Part shown: positions 4,670 through 11,755 of the stretch, piece by piece | How positions within the stretch are numbered: the stretch's first letter is position 1 | Layout of the letters: every line of letters starts with the position of its first letter | NCBI RefSeq assembly: GCF_001270965.1 | Contig: NZ_LGIA01000160.1 | Location: 1 to 40,341, forward strand | Source: Sunxiuqinia dokdonensis | GTDB lineage: Bacteria > Bacteroidota > Bacteroidia > Bacteroidales > Prolixibacteraceae | Length of the DNA stretch: 40,341 nucleotides | Reading direction: 5' to 3' | Translations under genes and position numbers: made by a program | The notes under the pieces: model-generated | The model's database searches: none | What the model was told of the DNA's origin: nothing | Seen by the model: only the letters and a program-made list of their open reading frames with translations

Positions 4670-5458
4670 TTACAGAATGGAGGTACTGTTCACCTGATGA
4701 GCATGGGTTCCAATAAGAATAACAGAAGGCATGGGCGGTTCGATTTGGTTTAAGTCTGACTCAATGTTGCCCAGGCTCGATGTGAAGAGCTGCTGATCGG
4801 GATGCCCGACCCTGCTGACAATTTGCATGGGAACATCGGACGACACGCCGCGGGCCATTAATTCGTTGGACAGAAGTACGAGGTTTTTCAGGCCCATATA
4901 AACCATCACCGGAGCGTTGGCTTTCACGATCGAAGCGACTTCATCCATATTTTCAAAACCACCATTGCGCTTGTGCCCCGTGTAAAACAAGGCCATACTA
5001 TTAACATTGCGCAGGGTAACCGGAATGTGGAAGCAAGTGGCGGCTGCCAATCCCGCCGTGATGCCCGGCACCACCTCCACCCGAAGATTTTGCTGTAAAC
5101 AAAAAGCCAACTCCTCGGCCCCGCGCCCAAAAATAAAAGGATCGCCCGCTTTCAGGCGTACCACGCGCTTGCCTTCGCAGGCAAATTGCTTCAACTGCTC
5201 ATGAATTTTATCCTGACGCTCCGTTTGGTGTTGTCCGTCCTGGTAATGCTTTCCGGCATAAATCTTACGGGCCTTGGGGCTGGCCAAATCCAAAATAGCA
5301 GTTCCGTGCAAGGCATCATACAAAATAACATCAGCCTGCTCCAGTCGGCGCAGGGCTCGTACAGTAAGCAAGTCCGGATCTCCAGGGCCAGCGCCCACAA
5401 TTGAGATCAGATGACCTTCGGATTGCGATTCCGGAATTTGAAATTTCGAATTTGACAT
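4670..5458 (-). CDS. cobA: uroporphyrinogen-III C-methyltransferase
   Basis: Transfers two methyl groups from S-adenosylmethionine to uroporphyrinogen III to make precorrin-2, the first committed step to siroheme. With the ATG at 5458 the product is 262 residues, normal for a stand-alone SUMT. Seen: the SAM-binding VGAGPGDPDLLT near the N-terminus, YDALHG, RLKAGDPFIFGRGAEE, and EVVPGITAGLAAA. An upstream TTG at 5488 would add ten residues and is less likely. The first dozen codons come from low-complexity DNA rich in AAATTTC/GAATTTC runs, unlike the conserved body of the gene. Last gene of the sulfite-reduction/siroheme cluster; it supplies the CysI cofactor pathway. Confidence 0.93.
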   Translation of the reverse strand: MSNSKFQIPESQSEGHLISIVGAGPGDPDLLTVRALRRLEQADVILYDALHGTAILDLASPKARKIYAGKHYQDGQHQTERQDKIHEQLKQFACEGKRVVRLKAGDPFIFGRGAEELAFCLQQNLRVEVVPGITAGLAAATCFHIPVTLRNVNSMALFYTGHKRNGGFENMDEVASIVKANAPVMVYMGLKNLVLLSNELMARGVSSDVPMQIVSRVGHPDQQLFTSSLGNIESDLNQIEPPMPSVILIGTHAHQVNSTSIL

Positions 5459-5507
5459 GGAAATTTTGTTAGACGCAAACGTCAGCAAAAACGTGAAAAT
5501 TTGGGTA

Positions 5508-5518: not shown

Positions 5519-6346
5519 CTAACCAATATGAACCACATTCAAATAATCCAGGGGGCTTGGGTATTTAAATTCGTAATTCAACTGATGAATAAGTTTGCTG
5601 CTATCAACCAACTTAAACGGCACTTGCTCATGGTTAAACTCTGGAGCTGCGATACCGGAAACCTCCGATGCCCGCTCGTAAAAATTCTGCCGGGTAGGAT
5701 GCACCGGACAACAAGCATTAAATGTTTCGCCCCAGGCCTCTTGATCAATGATTTTCAGAATGATGCCGATACAATCGTCCTGATGAATCAGGTTGACCGG
5801 TTTGAGTCCGCTTACCGGATCGACTTTTCGCTTCAGGAAACGTGCCGGATTACGGTCTGCACCAATCAGCCCGCCAAAACGTATGACCGTCGTTTTGAAA
5901 TTCCGGTTTTCCGACAACAGTAATTCGGCCATCACCAAGGCTTTTCCCGATGGTTTTTCTGGAAGTAAGACATCCTCCTCGGTGGCCTTTCCGCCCAATT
6001 CGTTGTAAACCGAAGTCGATGAAATAAACAAAACACGCGGCACCCGGTGCTCTTCCAGCAAGTGAACCAATTGTTTGATTTGAGCCGGGAAAATGGTTTC
6101 GATAAAATCGACCCGCCGTGGAGGAATCGCGACAATTACGAGATCGGTGTCGAAAAAACGAGGATCTTTGAGTTGTACTTTTTCTTCATCCAACACCAGG
6201 CTGTAGGGTTCGATCCCCGCGGCACTTAATGTTTTGAGCTTCGAGCGTGTTGTCACCGAGCCTTTCACCTGAAATCCTTCAGCGATCAACTTTTTTGCCA
6301 GGGGAAATCCCAGCCAGCCACAACCTAAGATCGATATTTTATTCAT
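5519..6346 (-). CDS. YeeZ-like NAD(P)-binding SDR/epimerase-family protein
   Basis: A 275-residue Rossmann-fold protein. The N-terminal ISILGCGWLGFPLA holds a GxGxxG nucleotide-binding loop, followed by VTTRS, VIVAIPPR and FISSTSVYNELGG; the order resembles YeeZ-type atypical extended SDR proteins. The substrate is unknown. It begins at ATG 6346 (a TTG two codons earlier is unlikely) and lies 11 bases after hemD and before cobA, so it is part of the siroheme/sulfite cluster. A role in the pathway is only inferred from position. Confidence 0.75.
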   Translation of the reverse strand: MNKISILGCGWLGFPLAKKLIAEGFQVKGSVTTRSKLKTLSAAGIEPYSLVLDEEKVQLKDPRFFDTDLVIVAIPPRRVDFIETIFPAQIKQLVHLLEEHRVPRVLFISSTSVYNELGGKATEEDVLLPEKPSGKALVMAELLLSENRNFKTTVIRFGGLIGADRNPARFLKRKVDPVSGLKPVNLIHQDDCIGIILKIIDQEAWGETFNACCPVHPTRQNFYERASEVSGIAAPEFNHEQVPFKLVDSSKLIHQLNYEFKYPSPLDYLNVVHIG

Positions 6347-6357
6347 CTTCAAACGAT

Positions 6358-7098
6358 TTATTCAATGATAATCCGGTGTTTGGGCTCCGGCTCATTGAGT
6401 TTTTCAGTAATTCGCTGAATGGCATACTTTACAAACGACAGTTCTTCTTCCTCATGCGATTCGAGCACTAAGTTAGGAAATTCTGCCCATGCTGCCTGAG
6501 CTGTGCGGTTGCCATTGGCCAACACCGGGGCTTTGGGCGGCGGAAAATTGCCCGATGCCTTGTAACTCTTGATAGCGCTTTCACTGAAAAACAAGTAGCC
6601 ATCAAACATCTCGTTCATCATGATTTCGATGGAAGTATTTTTATACACCTCAACCGAATGCCAGTCCAACTGATTCTGATCCAGCAGTTCAGGAAGCGGA
6701 TTCAGCGATTTGTCACCACGCAGGTAAATTACCTTGGCACCGTCATTCTGCTCAACCAGCAATTCGGCCAGCGAATAGGCGTTCAGCGATTTTGGCCGAA
6801 CAACGCGCACACCACATTTGGTTAAAATCCGCTCCTGCTTCTCAGAAAGACAATACACCAGATCATCTTTTTTCATGCCTATTTTCAAGGCAAAACGTAA
6901 GAGCCAATGTGCCGCATAAGAGCTGGTAACCACCCATTTTTTTTCCGAATTCTGGATCGAATTAAAAAAATGAATGTCAGGTTTCCGGTATGTAAGCCTG
7001 ACCAGGGGCTGTTCAATAAACTTAATCTGTTCGCTAACCAACCATTTGCGGGTTAGCGCCGAAAGTCTTCTTCCAATAAAAATTGCCGGTAATTCCAT
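6358..7098 (-). CDS. hemD: uroporphyrinogen-III synthase
   Basis: Closes and inverts ring D of hydroxymethylbilane to give uroporphyrinogen III, the branch point to siroheme and heme. The 246-residue product has the usual HemD length and fold pattern: IGRRLSALT at the N-terminus, WVVTSSYAAHWL in the first lobe, YLRGDKSLNPLPELL, VEVYKNTS, and FFSESAIKSY near the hinge. HemD sequences are very divergent, so the call leans on these motifs and the neighbouring siroheme genes. The ATG at 7098 starts just after the cysI stop codon, suggesting coupled translation. Confidence 0.82.
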   Translation of the reverse strand: MELPAIFIGRRLSALTRKWLVSEQIKFIEQPLVRLTYRKPDIHFFNSIQNSEKKWVVTSSYAAHWLLRFALKIGMKKDDLVYCLSEKQERILTKCGVRVVRPKSLNAYSLAELLVEQNDGAKVIYLRGDKSLNPLPELLDQNQLDWHSVEVYKNTSIEIMMNEMFDGYLFFSESAIKSYKASGNFPPPKAPVLANGNRTAQAAWAEFPNLVLESHEEEELSFVKYAIQRITEKLNEPEPKHRIIIE

Positions 7099-7103
7099 GG
7101 TTT

Positions 7104-8801
7104 TCAATGTTTAAAATCTTTTCCTTGCTTTGTTTCTTTCACATATTCTCTCCGAATAACGAAATCACCGAATCCTTCGCCTTCACTCCTGTTCTTCGCA
7201 TAGTCTGCAATGATCGGCCGCAATTCAGCAAGTATTTCCTCTTCCGAGAGTGTTTCTTTGTAGAGGGTATTCAATCGGGTGCCGTTGAAATTTCCTCCCA
7301 AATAGAGGTTGTAATGGCCCAGCGATTTTCCGATGAAACCAATTTCAGCCAAATACGGACGCCCACAGCCATTGGGGCAACCGGTCATCCGAATGACAAT
7401 TTCCTGCTTGGTCAAATCGTGCTCGGCCAGGATGGCTTCTATTTTATCCATCAGCGTGGGCAGGTAACGTTCAGCCTCGGCAAAAGCCAGCCCGCAAGTA
7501 TTCAGAGCAACACAGGCAATTGAATTTTGCCGCAGCCCCGACAATTGCACCGGCCAAACACCATATTTTTTCAAAATCCGGTTGACTTCATCCTTCTCGC
7601 TGGTGTTGGCAATTATCAGGTTTTGGTTTCCAGTCAGGATAAACTGCGCATCGCCAACCTTTTTGGCTACTTCGCGCAAGGCTGTTTTTAACTGAAGGGC
7701 TTCTGTGTCTTTTACCCGGCCACCTTCAACAAACAAGTTCAGGCTCCATTTCCCGTCTGTTCCTTTTTTCCAGCCATAGCGATCACCGTTCCGCGAAAAC
7801 TCATACGGTTTGGCAGGCTGAAGTTCGTAACCCAGGTACTTGTTCACCTCCGTTTTAAACCAGTCGAGCCCGTTGCGATCGATGGTATATTTCAGCCGGG
7901 CTTGCTTGCGGTTGGTCCGATCACCATGGTCTTTTTGAACCAACACCACTTTTTCTGCCACTTCAATGGCCTGCTCCGGCGTGCAAAAACCAATCACATC
8001 GGCCAGGCGGGGGTAAGCTTCCGGAATCCCAAAAGTTGACCCCAGGCCACCGCCGGCTGTTACATTGTAGCCAATCAGCTTCCCTTTTTCTTCGATGGCA
8101 ATAAAGCCCAGATCCTGCGAAAAAATATCCACATCGTTGTAAGGAGGAATGGCCACACCTATTTTAAATTTCCTGGGCAGGTAACGAATGCCGTAAATTG
8201 GCTCCACTTCTGTTTTGCTGTCAGCCACCTTTTCCTTGTCAAGCCAAATTTCGTGGTAAGCCTTTGTTTGCGGCATCAGGTGAGCCGAAAGTGCACCGGC
8301 CAATTCGTAAACGGCAGCATGCAAATCTGACTCGGCTGGATTGGCATGCGACATCACGTTGCGGTTCACATCGCCACAAGCGGCAATGGTATCCAACAAA
8401 ACTTCGTTAATTCCTTGAATGGCAGGCTTCAGTTTTTTCTTAATCACCCCGTGCAACTGAAACGCCTGACGCGTGGTCAGTTTCAAGGTGCCATTGGCAT
8501 GTGTATCGGCCAGCCGGTCCATCTGAAGCCATTGCTTCGGGCTGGTAACTCCTCCGGGCAGGCGAACCCGTATTAAAAAAGAATAGGCCGGCTCCAGCTT
8601 TTGGCGCTTGCGTTCTTTCTCCAGATCGCGGTCGTGTTGCTGATATATGCCATGAAATTTTGACAGCTGCGTGTCGTCGGCAGCAATTGCTCCGGTTACC
8701 GGATCAGCCAGACTTTCAGCCAGGGTTCCCCGAAGATAATTGCTGTCGTATTTTATTTTCTCAACTTCAGCCAGCTTGCTCCAATCAATTGTTTCGCTCA
8801 T
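7104..8801 (-). CDS. cysI: assimilatory sulfite reductase, hemoprotein subunit
   Basis: Six-electron reduction of sulfite to sulfide with siroheme and a 4Fe-4S cluster. With the ATG at 8801 the product is 565 residues, close to the 570 of the Escherichia coli enzyme. The four cluster cysteines are present: C430 and C436 in [20 protein letters not shown] and C475 and C479 in TGCPNGCGR. The ferredoxin-like segments RLPGGVT and [11 protein letters not shown] are also clear. An upstream TTG at 8882 would add 27 residues without family support. cysJ lies upstream with a 117-base gap, unusually large for this tight operon. Confidence 0.95.
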
Positions 8802-8918
8802 CTTATCAGTGTTTTTTGTACGGTAAGGCATCCTGGTGTTAATGCTTACTACCAATACGCTTTTATACTTATCAATGTTCAATCAAAAAATTAAAATAAT
8901 TTACTTCCCGCAACGCTT

Positions 8919-10712
8919 TTAGTACACGTCAGCCATAAAGCGCTTTTCCTTTTTCAGCTTTTTGAAATAAGCCCTGGCCTTTTTGTCGGTCATACCACCC
9001 TGTACTTTAATGATATCCAGCAGTGTGACCTGAACGTCTTTCGCCATGTACTTCATATCGCCACAGAGGTAAAAACTGGCACCGTTTTCGAGCCATCGGA
9101 ATAATTCTTCCTGCTGCTCTTTCAGCCTGTGCTGAACGTACACCTTTTCCTCCTGATCGCGCGAAAAAGCCAAATCGATCTTTTCGAGATATCCTTGTTT
9201 CAGGTATTTCTGCCATTCGAGTTGGTAAAGAAAGTCAGAAGAAAAGCGGCGCTCGCCAAAGAACAGCCAACTTTTGCCTTTCTGCCCGGCGGTTTCGCGT
9301 TGTTGCAAGAAGGCCCGGTAAGGCGCAATGCCGGTTCCAGCCCCAACCATAATGATGGGACTGCCATTGGCAGGTAGTCGAAAACTCGGGTTTTTATCGA
9401 TGTAGATCAGCACATCATCATCTACTTCCAGCCGGTCGGCCAAAAAAGTGGAGCAAGCGCCGTATCGTTGCCGCCCTTTGTTTTCGTAGCGCACCCGCGA
9501 AACGGTGATGTGAACTTCATCCTCATAGGCCTTTTGGCTCGATGAAATACTGTACAAACGCGGTGGCAGCGGACGAAGCAAATCCAAAAATTCGGTGGCT
9601 GTCAGTTTGGCCGGAAATTCATGTAACAGGTCCAGCACATCATGACCGAACAGATATTGATCCAGTTTGGCTTCATCATCAACGATGGACTGAACCCCGG
9701 AAGATCCAGTCTTTTCGGCATATTTCTGAATCACATCGCGCGTGAGCAGTGTAATTTCGTAGTGATGTTTCAGGGCTTCGTTAAATGGCAGTTTTCCGAT
9801 CCGGGTTTCCACGACTTCATTATCGATCACACCCAAGGTCGAAATAATTTCCTTGACCAATTTGGGCGGGTTCTGAGCGATGACACCCAAGGCATCGCCC
9901 GGTTCGTATTGAATTCCTGATCCTTCCAATGACAGCTCAAGGTGATAAACTTCCTTATCAGATTCGCGCCCGGTAATGCGAACTTTATCGAGCACTTTTG
10001 ATCGAAACGGATTCTTCCTTGAGTAGGTATTCGTTTCACCTGAAGTAACCACTTCAGCAGCAGCCTGCCCAGGCGTTTCCGGTTGAAGTTTTGCCAGCTC
10101 ATCCAGTACGTCGGTCGTCCATTTTGCGGCATCTTCCTCGTAGTCCACATCGCACATCACGATCGGAACCAACTCATTGGCTCCAGCATTTTTAAAGGCG
10201 TGGTCGATATCAATCCCGGTTTGGCAAAATAGTTTATAGCTCTTGTCGCCCAAAGCCAACACCGAGTAGTTCAAACCTTCGAGTTTTGGCGCCCGTTTTC
10301 CGGTGACAAAGGCATGAAAATCTTCCGCCATTTCGGGTGGCTCGCCTTCGCCATGAGTGCTGACAATCACCAACAAGTTTTTTTCGTCTTTTAACTGCTT
10401 GGGTTTGTAATCGTCCATCGGCTTCAACTGGCAAGCAATATTCCGGGTACTTCCTTGCTCGCACAAGGCTTTGGCTATCGCTTCGCTACGACCGGTATGG
10501 GTACCGTACAAGATGGTTAACGGCAATTTTTCAACGGCGACGGCCGAATCAGACTGGCTGACACCAGTAACGACCGAACCTACAGCAACACTTCCGGCCA
10601 AGCCCTGAAAATAACCGCTCAACCAAATTACCTGCTCCGGCTTAGCTCCCTGTGTCAATTGCTGCAAAGCTTTCAACTGAGCTTCGTTTAAGGGGGAAAG
10701 TTGAATACTCAT
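8919..10712 (-). CDS. cysJ: assimilatory sulfite reductase, NADPH flavoprotein subunit
   Basis: Passes electrons from NADPH through FAD and FMN to CysI. At 597 residues it matches CysJ. Domain order: N-terminal helix with WLSGYFQGLAG (30-40), flavodoxin domain from about 64 (YGTHTGRSEAIA binds FMN), FAD domain with RLYSISSS, then the NADP domain with GAGTGIAPYRAFLQQR and the typical C-terminal Tyr in ADVY. ATG start at 10712 lies 5 bases after the precorrin-2 dehydrogenase stop codon. Same operon as cysI. Confidence 0.95.
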   Translation of the reverse strand: MSIQLSPLNEAQLKALQQLTQGAKPEQVIWLSGYFQGLAGSVAVGSVVTGVSQSDSAVAVEKLPLTILYGTHTGRSEAIAKALCEQGSTRNIACQLKPMDDYKPKQLKDEKNLLVIVSTHGEGEPPEMAEDFHAFVTGKRAPKLEGLNYSVLALGDKSYKLFCQTGIDIDHAFKNAGANELVPIVMCDVDYEEDAAKWTTDVLDELAKLQPETPGQAAAEVVTSGETNTYSRKNPFRSKVLDKVRITGRESDKEVYHLELSLEGSGIQYEPGDALGVIAQNPPKLVKEIISTLGVIDNEVVETRIGKLPFNEALKHHYEITLLTRDVIQKYAEKTGSSGVQSIVDDEAKLDQYLFGHDVLDLLHEFPAKLTATEFLDLLRPLPPRLYSISSSQKAYEDEVHITVSRVRYENKGRQRYGACSTFLADRLEVDDDVLIYIDKNPSFRLPANGSPIIMVGAGTGIAPYRAFLQQRETAGQKGKSWLFFGERRFSSDFLYQLEWQKYLKQGYLEKIDLAFSRDQEEKVYVQHRLKEQQEELFRWLENGASFYLCGDMKYMAKDVQVTLLDIIKVQGGMTDKKARAYFKKLKKEKRFMADVY

Positions 10713-10717
10713 CTCTT

Positions 10718-11176
10718 TTATTCTTTAAGTGTTTTGGTTTCTAAAAAATTTTTGATTTCGTTCCGAATTCGAATCGAGGCATAAACATCTTTGGCATTGG
10801 AACTGACAGCTACACGAATGTCACCATCCTGATAAATGGCCGGTGAAACGAATTGACACAAGGCCGGCTGGTCGTGAATGTTTACCAATACGCCGGCATT
10901 CCTGCCGTCGCGGGCAATTTGAGCATCCAGTTCCGGATTGTTGGTGCACGAATAAAACATCAGAAAGCCTTTCAAGTCCACCTTTTCATAAGCCTTCACC
11001 GTATAAGGAACATCGCTGTTCTTAATCTCATCGCACACCTCAAGGGCAATAACTTCAACATAAGCATCAAAACGCTTCAAAATCTGAATTTTGCTCCAGG
11101 CCGATTGTCCGCCACCAATGATCAGGATCTTTTCACCGGCTATGTTGATTGCGATAGGCAAATAATTTTTTTCCAT
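10718..11176 (-). CDS. precorrin-2 dehydrogenase (siroheme synthase N-terminal domain)
   Basis: Oxidises precorrin-2 to sirohydrochlorin with NAD, and in related Met8/CysG proteins also inserts iron. The 152-residue product is a stand-alone CysG-N/Met8-type domain: YLPIAINIAGEKILIIGGG (Rossmann loop, residues 4-22), CTNNPELDAQIA, then VNIHDQPALCQFVSPA and DIRVAVSSNAKD. A TTG further upstream is less likely than ATG 11176. It is 4 bases after the DUF2061 gene and 5 bases before cysJ. Whether it also has ferrochelatase activity cannot be told from sequence. Confidence 0.9.
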   Translation of the reverse strand: MEKNYLPIAINIAGEKILIIGGGQSAWSKIQILKRFDAYVEVIALEVCDEIKNSDVPYTVKAYEKVDLKGFLMFYSCTNNPELDAQIARDGRNAGVLVNIHDQPALCQFVSPAIYQDGDIRVAVSSNAKDVYASIRIRNEIKNFLETKTLKE

Positions 11177-11180
11177 ATTG

Positions 11181-11411
11181 CTAAATTTGATATTCAATAT
11201 CAGACTCATCTATCCGTCCGAACTTGATCTTGTTCCAGGTGCGCTCGTGGAAATAGTACAGCACCATCTTGGTAAACAGTTCAATTCCACCAATCGTTAC
11301 CGCAAACTCCAGCTGTCCAATCACCAACCAGGCAATCATAATGGTATCCAGGGTTCCAACTGTTCTCCACGAAATTGTTTTAATAACACTGCGATAAGCT
11401 TTTTCTCTCAT
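11181..11411 (-). CDS. DUF2061 small membrane protein
   Basis: A 76-residue protein with the DUF2061 pattern: REKAYRSVIKTISWRTVGTLDT at the N-terminus (written here in parts: REKAYRSVIKTISWR, then TVGTLDT), a hydrophobic stretch at about 24-45 and YFHERTWNKI near the end. Predicted inner-membrane protein. Its function is unknown; the family is often encoded with sulfate-assimilation genes. It is the first structural gene behind the attenuator and therefore the direct target of leader control. Confidence 0.85.
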   Translation of the reverse strand: MREKAYRSVIKTISWRTVGTLDTIMIAWLVIGQLEFAVTIGGIELFTKMVLYYFHERTWNKIKFGRIDESDIEYQI

Positions 11412-11440: not shown

Positions 11441-11474
11441 AAAAAAAGCCCTTCTGGGTTACAGAAGGGCTTTT
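11441..11474 (-). terminator. attenuator terminator (segments 3:4)
   Basis: On the minus strand AAAAGCCCTTCT and AGAAGGGCTTTT form a perfect 12-bp stem around a 7-base loop, followed by a run of seven T. It stands between the leader ORF and the DUF2061 start codon, so it would stop transcription before the operon. Segment 3 (11469-11462) can instead pair with segment 2 inside the leader ORF. Confidence 0.88.
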
Positions 11475-11527
11475 CCTATGATGTTATTTCAACTTATAGT
11501 AAGTTCATATCTTTTTCCCCTTCTGCA
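11461..11527 (-). promoter_or_regulatory. antiterminator (segments 2:3)
   Basis: Segment 2, CAGAAGGG at 11525-11518, is the exact reverse complement of segment 3, CCCTTCTG at 11469-11462; a G-U and a U-A pair can extend it to 10 pairs. Forming this stem removes the first arm of the terminator. Segment 2 lies in codons 17-20 of the leader ORF, so a ribosome that finishes translation covers it and a ribosome stalled at the Cys/Met codons leaves it free. A small 6-bp hairpin (AACTTA/TAAGTT) sits in the loop between them. Confidence 0.75.
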
Positions 11528-11576
11528 TAAAAAGACCACAACACATACACATCATAGTACATGTCATTTTCATCAT
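11505..11576 (-). CDS. Met/Cys-rich leader peptide of the sulfite-reduction operon
   Basis: A 23-codon ORF, ATG to TGA, 94 bases upstream of the DUF2061 gene. Met occurs at positions 1, 2, 4, 8, 9, 11 and 17 and Cys (all TGT) at 6, 10, 12 and 13, so 11 of the first 17 codons specify sulfur amino acids. The last codons overlap the antiterminator strand and the stop codon comes just after it, the arrangement of classic trp/his-type attenuators. Segment 1 (CTTCTGCA, 11590-11583) just upstream of the ATG is complementary to TGCAGAAG at 11527-11520, giving a third, protecting hairpin when no ribosome is present. Too short for routine gene callers. Confidence 0.82.
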   Translation of the reverse strand: MMKMTCTMMCMCCGLFMQKGKKI

Positions 11577-11724
11577 TTTATTTGCAGAAGTATGGGCGTT
11601 CATTTGTCTTTTTTTATCTTTTTGACTGTTTTCGACTCAATTATTAAGAAACGAAGAATCTTGGTGTTTGATGCCGTCAGTATAGCCTTGTCTTTTATCC
11701 TAGCTTTACACTTGCATTTCGGGT

Positions 11725-11754
11725 CAAAAATAGCGACATCTTTTTCAAAACAAA
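11725..11754 (-). promoter_or_regulatory. candidate promoter of the sulfite-reduction/siroheme operon
   Basis: On the minus strand TTTG (11754-11751), an 18-base spacer and TATTTTTG (11732-11725) fit the Bacteroidota -33/-7 consensus, with the -7 box matching TAnnTTTG exactly. Transcription would begin near 11719, giving a leader of about 300 bases that contains the leader ORF and attenuator. Confidence 0.5.
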
Positions 11755-11755
11755 A

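Follow-up and report, generated by a model that had tools for sequence, protein, structure and literature searches.

What controls the sulfite-reduction and siroheme operon that follows a short, Met- and Cys-rich reading frame and a terminator on the minus strand of the window, the whole 40,341-nucleotide stretch of Sunxiuqinia dokdonensis DNA analyzed here? Our prediction, which we consider very probable, is a ribosome-mediated transcription attenuator of the trp/his type that senses cysteinyl-tRNA. The features concerned are as follows, in the order of transcription.

11725 to 11755, minus strand: promoter-like motif, TTTTG at 11755-11751 (read by eye) and TATTTTTG at 11732-11725 (TAnnTTTG)
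11505 to 11603, minus strand: putative leader peptide ORF of 32 codons, MNAHTSANKMMKMTCTMMCMCCGLFMQKGKKI, of which the ORF at 11576-11505 is the 3' part
11583 to 11590, minus strand: segment 1, CTTCTGCA, within the leader ORF when its start is 11603
11538 to 11561, minus strand: candidate regulatory codons Cys15, Met17, Met18, Cys19, Met20, Cys21 and Cys22, with all Cys encoded by TGT
11518 to 11527, minus strand: segment 2, TGCAGAAGGG, within codons 26-29 (MQKG), pairing with segment 1 or with segment 3
11460 to 11470, minus strand: segment 3, GCCCTTCTGTA, the 5' arm of the terminator
11441 to 11474, minus strand: intrinsic terminator (segments 3:4 plus seven T), 29 nt ahead of the first gene
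11181 to 11411, minus strand: DUF2061 membrane protein, the first gene (PF09834)
10718 to 11209, minus strand: siroheme synthase N-terminal domain (TIGR01470, above cut-off)
8919 to 10712, minus strand: cysJ, sulfite reductase flavoprotein (TIGR01931, above cut-off)
7104 to 8882, minus strand: cysI, sulfite reductase hemoprotein (TIGR02041, above cut-off)
6358 to 7107, minus strand: uroporphyrinogen-III synthase (HEM4), HemD-like (PF02602)
5519 to 6352, minus strand: NAD(P)-binding protein, a syntenic member of the operon (PF13460; synteny)
4670 to 5488, minus strand: uroporphyrinogen-III C-methyltransferase (TIGR01469, above cut-off)

The Pfam and NCBIfam matches agree with the sulfite-reduction/siroheme identity that the initial annotation had given to this operon. 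DUF2061 occurs together with cysJ and cysI in 12 of 14 larger regions, G010 and G038 being without both in the stretch examined.

The leader had been described as a 23-codon ORF at 11576-11505 on the minus strand, and the Met and Cys positions claimed for it match its translation, MMKMTCTMMCMCCGLFMQKGKKI. The ORF itself is real, but relatives indicate a start 27 nt further upstream than 11576, at 11603. We prefer 11603 because this ATG is in frame and invariant in all 14 homologous leaders, and segment 1 therefore lies inside the leader ORF. The longer ORF (11603-11505) contains four Cys and eight Met among its 32 codons. Its Cys/Met core is kept in 14/14 homologues, with 2 to 6 Cys in each, and MMCMCC or a variant of it recurs across the catalogued leaders of the family. 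The leader ORF is presumably translated.

Conservation was examined with the DUF2061 protein, which gave matches in 22 of 61 genomes: 17 close orthologues (57-100% identity) and five weak, distant matches. The initial annotation had proposed searching upstream of DUF2061/cysJI operons for a Met/Cys-rich ORF followed by a terminator, and such a leader stands directly upstream of DUF2061 in 14 of the 17 close orthologues, which were chosen by protein homology alone. The leader lies ahead of a hemA gene that precedes DUF2061 in G002, and ahead of cysD in G012, where it is about 2.4 kb upstream of DUF2061; no leader was found at the DUF2061 orthologue of G038, which belongs to another family. Under a strict rule (an upstream ORF 12-55 codons long, containing three or more Cys and 9% Cys or more), 12 of the 17 loci scored, with a terminator after each of the 12. 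The corresponding controls, scored for the ORF alone and not for the terminator, gave 0/17 on the antisense strand and a mean of 1.44 (maximum 4) in dinucleotide shuffles. Close relatives retaining neither the codons nor the pairings had been named as a refutation; in fact the Cys/Met codons persist in them, together with the whole arrangement of promoter motif, leader, terminator and operon.

The same idea would have been undermined by transcripts starting downstream of 11505; instead, a conserved promoter motif sits upstream of the leader. TAnnTTTG, which we take to be the Bacteroidota -7 element, occurs no more than 140 nt from the leader ATG in 14/14 homologues, compared with 4 on the antisense strand and a mean of 1.88 (maximum 5) in shuffles. 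The transcript is expected to start near 11719.

The arms of the terminator stem are AAAGCCCTTCTG and CAGAAGGGCTTT, followed by T. Both the 12-bp stem and the seven T noted earlier are present, but the 12-bp stem uses up three of the seven T; behind a 9-bp core, GCCCTTCTG/CAGAAGGGC, all seven remain. Segments 1, 2 and 3 were located correctly, but the segment 4 partner of CCCTTCTG is 11456-11449 rather than 11455-11448, a difference of one base. Segment 2, in codons 26-29 of 32, is indeed close to where the leader ORF ends, as had been stated. The leader of the window has a folding energy of -51.7 kcal/mol, compared with -29.0 kcal/mol (standard deviation = 4.0) for shuffles, giving z = -5.7. 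When duplex energies were compared with those of 1000 dinucleotide shuffles of the ORF part, with a cut-off of p<=0.05, the window gave p = 0.006 for 2:3 and p = 0.003 for 1:2. Among the 14 homologous leaders, 1:2 passed this cut-off in 13 (all except L050) and 2:3 in 10 (all except L042, L044, L050 and L055), p-values that are not independent as the leaders are related. The alternative pairings are thus mostly kept in close relatives.

The base pairs of the leader are kept mainly through invariance, with few base-pair changes. No significant covariation was found among the eight closest leaders; in 16 leaders it reached significance, four pairs having changed on both sides and a value as high being reached in 1 of 500 shuffles, but in an alignment fitted to the structure. 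Alignment A1, in which segment 2 was misplaced in rows L010-L015, was rejected; the covariation of alignment A4 was discarded for three misplaced rows (L050, L055 and L057), and alignment A3 was dropped for including reverse-strand terminator matches.

Folding with parts of the transcript masked by a ribosome gave three states. With none bound, 1:2 formed together with 3:4, the terminator; with the ribosome at Cys15, Cys19 or Cys22 and the transcript ending at segment 3, 2:3 formed (-19.4 kcal/mol); and with the ribosome at the stop codon, 3:4 formed. The simulation reproduces the claim that translation to the stop favors the terminator and, for the transcript ending at segment 3, that stalling at Cys favors the antiterminator. 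However, the full transcript at equilibrium, with the ribosome at Cys22, prefers the terminator (-24.3 versus -19.4 kcal/mol), which counts against the switch unless timing is considered; the choice must therefore be settled before segment 4 is synthesized, a dependence on timing as in trp. Across 106 leaders, the first base of the last Cys codon lies a median of 14 nt from the start of segment 2, and the end of segment 2 a median of 8 nt from the stop codon. Given the size of a ribosome footprint, a ribosome halted on the last Cys codon would leave segment 2 free, and one at the stop codon would cover it, the spacing that a switch of the trp type requires.

In the mechanism that we propose, scarce charged tRNA-Cys would cause the ribosome to halt on UGU codons when RNA polymerase has not yet reached segment 4. 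A ribosome stalled at Cys15, Cys19 or Cys22 would cut off segment 1, leaving segment 2 to pair with nascent segment 3 as an antiterminator, and read-through into DUF2061-cysG-cysJ-cysI-hemD-SUMT would provide more sulfide and siroheme for cysteine. A ribosome that reaches the stop codon would cover segment 2 so that 3:4 terminates, and in a transcript with no ribosome segment 1 would pair with 2 and segment 3 with 4, again yielding the terminator. Through the Met codons, a shortage of methionine or of sulfur in general may feed in too, which is the weaker part of the proposal.

To describe leaders elsewhere in the family, we used model R2, built from 16 Cys leaders and containing 1:2 and 3:4 but not 2:3, which matched 84 of 140 family genomes at E<=1e-4. 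The resulting catalogue comprises 123 places, with at least G137:C42, G120:C1:199965 and G023:C18 left out, and its counts are not unbiased because R2 was built from Cys leaders. No ORF was found by the catalogue's own rule at L193, L207 and L208; based on BLAST against reference proteins, the remaining 120 were divided into 109 before sulfur genes, 2 before ilvD and 9 unlabelled. The 109 sulfur leaders precede DUF2061 (53), CysK (20), OsmC (19), CysG (7), HemA (5), metY (3) and CysD (2). Representatives of HemA, CysD, metY, CysK and IlvD scored above the NCBIfam cut-offs, as did one OsmC representative above the Pfam cut-off (PF02566). The unlabelled L195, L199 and L209 showed no Cys leader. 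Cys leaders were found ahead of DUF4395 genes (PF14340) at L067 and L170 and ahead of a carbonic anhydrase gene (PF00484) at L150, L158 being alike by eye, which suggests that DUF4395 and carbonic anhydrase are linked to cysteine supply; L075 and L164 had no clear downstream gene.

The 109 sulfur leaders, whose p-values are likewise not independent, come from 75 genomes; 2:3 passed p<=0.05 in 79 of them and missed it in 30, and 1:2 passed in 77. Stem letters other than those of the cys operon occur in the OsmC and cysK groups, where 2:3 passed in 18/19 and 15/20 leaders, respectively; in the cysK group, 1:2 passed in just 4/20. Counting against the general picture, L162, L055 and L044 have one or two Cys only.

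The genome of the window carries a second Cys leader, L073 (G000:C152:12652-12823, minus strand), which stands before OsmC, encodes the peptide MNLSLSNSMMCMCCCMLFKHVEGGVMLL and differs in its hairpin letters; further down, the same contig has a NIR_SIR-like gene (C152:7995-9392). The same genome also contains L320 before ilvD, where two Ile/Leu/Val leader ORFs, encoding MKLQAIISNVLILLVVVISQAK and MRQFTTIHLVLLVVILVFH, stand in tandem with a terminator after each.

At the level of the class, P0002, a protein of the nitrite/sulfite-reductase family taken from L105, was compared with 149 Bacteroidia genomes, 38 of which matched, and 30 loci were analyzed. The strict rule identified a Cys ORF at 15 of these sulfite-reductase-like loci, with a terminator after each, or at 14 of 29 without L210, the query's own locus, which had been found by the RNA model. 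Controls for the ORF alone gave 2 on the antisense strand and a mean of 2.34 (maximum 6) in shuffles. That half of the loci fail the strict rule counts against a general occurrence; by eye, some of those that fail it have leaders, for example L215 and L216. Five of the 30 loci (L210, L218, L224, L226 and L238) have two Cys leaders and a terminator after each, as do the Marinifilaceae DUF2061 loci L255, L266 and L268. Inspection of 29 class-level loci (L101-L129) yielded 14 Cys/Met leaders, 1 His leader and 14 ordinary terminators, and the tally of 104 of 395 genomes given by the class-level search, which includes weak model matches, was rejected as a count of attenuators on account of these ordinary terminators. 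At L123, a His-rich leader, MKFIQLHHHHFHTCSQARS, and a terminator lie ahead of a gene that we take to be hisG-like.

A phylum-wide search with P0002 matched 22 of 148 genomes, the new loci L322-L335 being recorded as matches only. For DUF2061 across phyla, the best 80 of 555 loci were evaluated with a laxer rule (at least two Cys and 6% Cys, plus a terminator). Of 30 loci outside Bacteroidota that had 150 nt or more of upstream sequence (a further one had less), a single locus carried such an ORF and terminator; the leader therefore does not merely accompany the DUF2061 gene. Within Bacteroidota, the lax rule identified 24 of 49 loci, with L304 and a wrong ORF in L261 left out of the count, and it misses at least L246, L261, L274 and L290, all with known leaders. 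The 25 Bacteroidota loci without a lax-rule match include 12 from flavobacteria and 3 from Paludibacter.

Which amino acid the leader reports on can be judged from its codons. The initial annotation had named low charged Cys- or Met-tRNA as the signal, of which the Cys part is better supported and Met as an equal signal is weaker. A possible, though rather unlikely, alternative is that the leader senses a general shortage of sulfur amino acids, with Met codons halting the ribosome as much as Cys codons do. Within the family, leader codon content broadly follows the downstream pathway: Cys-operon leaders contain 10-15% Cys and 15-29% Met, and three metY leaders contain 36% Met and 5% Cys, as against 50% Ile/Leu/Val, 1% Cys and 6% Met in seven ilvD leaders picked by eye. 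The Met share of this operon type (19%) and of the metY leaders, compared with that of the ilvD leaders, favors sensing through Met, and so does the equal number of Met and Cys in L213, L217, L230 and L231. The Met-dominated leaders L054, L056, L075 and L189 have 10 to 12 Met, and three of them are followed by an O-acetylhomoserine sulfhydrylase (by NCBIfam for L056, by BLAST to that of L056 for the others); L075, the fourth, lies near a contig end. Outside the family, however, leaders of metY-like genes (labels by eye) have four to six Cys (L111, L116 and L118), so the specificity of Met for metY is not clean. Against Met as an equal signal, Cys21 and Cys22 are the last sulfur codons in the window that end before segment 2, and Met26 overlaps it. 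In addition, class-wide leaders before the sulfite-reductase-like gene include Cys runs with few Met, for example MKTNWTFNGIKATCCTMCCTCCAL and MINQNKMMCCCCKSTERWKW, and L219, L226, L227, L228 and L237 are Cys runs with just two to four Met. Such leaders make cysteine the better supported signal, although other class-wide leaders have five to seven Met.

That the Cys/Met-rich peptide itself acts as the sensor, binding metal, heme or persulfide in the exit tunnel or becoming oxidized and thereby halting or freeing the ribosome, appears improbable. CxC/CC and Met motifs can bind metal, and OsmC-like genes stand behind 19 catalogued leaders (PF02566 was tested for one), but between operons the peptides share little beyond Cys and Met, the order of which varies (CCCC, MCMCC, CCMCC), and other pathways show the same layout with Ile/Leu/Val or His codons instead. 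Even less credit can be given to a plain terminator combined with a functional Cys-rich small protein, in which the pairings of the ORF would be incidental: the ORF is conserved and promoter-proximal, as such a gene might be, but 1:2 and 2:3 beat shuffles in most leaders and in several versions of the stem, and the terminator lies 29 nt ahead of the first gene. A known riboswitch or another described RNA family is extremely unlikely, since, even though sulfur genes are often under SAM riboswitches, the window has no Rfam match at the gathering score, SAM riboswitch and Bacteroid-trp (RF01692) included. Among 19 further leader loci, one unrelated Rfam match was obtained, a DUF805 RNA (RF03081) at L049:927-993, minus strand, near the cysD leader of G012.

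Considered jointly with the Ile/Leu/Val and His leaders, the cysteinyl-tRNA attenuator points to a broader possibility, towards which we lean: Bacteroidia may run sulfur assimilation largely independently of any dedicated regulator protein, through a scattered regulon of Cys-codon attenuators. If so, the regulon would include siroheme/sulfite reductase, cysD, cysK, cysE-like, OsmC, carbonic anhydrase and DUF4395 genes, and in this family it would be joined by Met-codon attenuators before metY. Together with the leaders of ilvD, leuA-like (Ile/Leu/Val) and hisG-like (His) genes, leader-peptide attenuation would then be a main form of amino acid control in the phylum, and attenuators in tandem may act as a steeper or two-step gate. 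The layout, which recurs across operons with different hairpin letters, would offer a simple rule, open to testing, by which cysteine may be gauged in a phylum that is large and of ecological importance. It brings to notice small ORFs that are easily overlooked in annotation, and would newly tie DUF2061, DUF4395, a HemA copy and carbonic anhydrase to cysteine supply.

The predicted attenuator shares with the trp and his attenuators of Enterobacteria a promoter, a short ORF rich in codons for the end product, the alternative 1:2/2:3/3:4 pairing and an intrinsic terminator before the first gene. It differs from them in having segment 2 within the leader ORF and segment 1 close to the ORF start, in its Cys (and Met) codons, in its occurrence in Bacteroidota and in the presence of two attenuators in series at some loci. 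Bacteroid-trp, which presumably has a role in tryptophan, differs in that its name points to trp genes, and the window has no Rfam match. It is listed as a candidate cis-regulatory RNA of Bacteroidetes (PMC2864571, Table 1). Of the cysteine leaders, uORFC-8-2 upstream of cysS in Rhodobacterales is described as having tandem Cys codons followed by a terminator, with read-through at low Cys-tRNA proposed (PMC8632094). By that description it is set apart by its phylum and by its gene, cysS (cysteinyl-tRNA synthetase) rather than DUF2061-cysG-cysJ-cysI. Short ORFs with Cys runs before cys/cbs operons are described for Mycobacterium, P. acnes and B. longum; in the account given there, these actinobacterial leaders have no conserved hairpin terminator, and the mode of regulation is left open (PMC1262725). 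According to a survey of premature terminators, leader peptides were known only from Proteobacteria and Actinobacteria, to which Firmicutes were added (PMC2965389).

Within Bacteroidota, small ORFs reminiscent of leader peptides are mentioned for B. thetaiotaomicron (PMC7366714), and Flavobacterium psychrophilum, of the same phylum as the window, is stated to show strong clues that leader peptide attenuation acts ahead of its operons for amino-acid biosynthesis, in passages that name no amino acid (PMC9723704). No report of Cys attenuation in Bacteroidota was found in the mostly openly accessible literature searched. The earlier statement that no example was known in this phylum thus holds for cysteine within that literature, but not for leader-peptide attenuation as such, given the F. 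psychrophilum account (PMC9723704). Leader-peptide attenuation had therefore already been hinted at in Bacteroidota, and what is new in this phylum, as far as our search extends, is its cysteine version, the wide spread of that version and its tandem copies.
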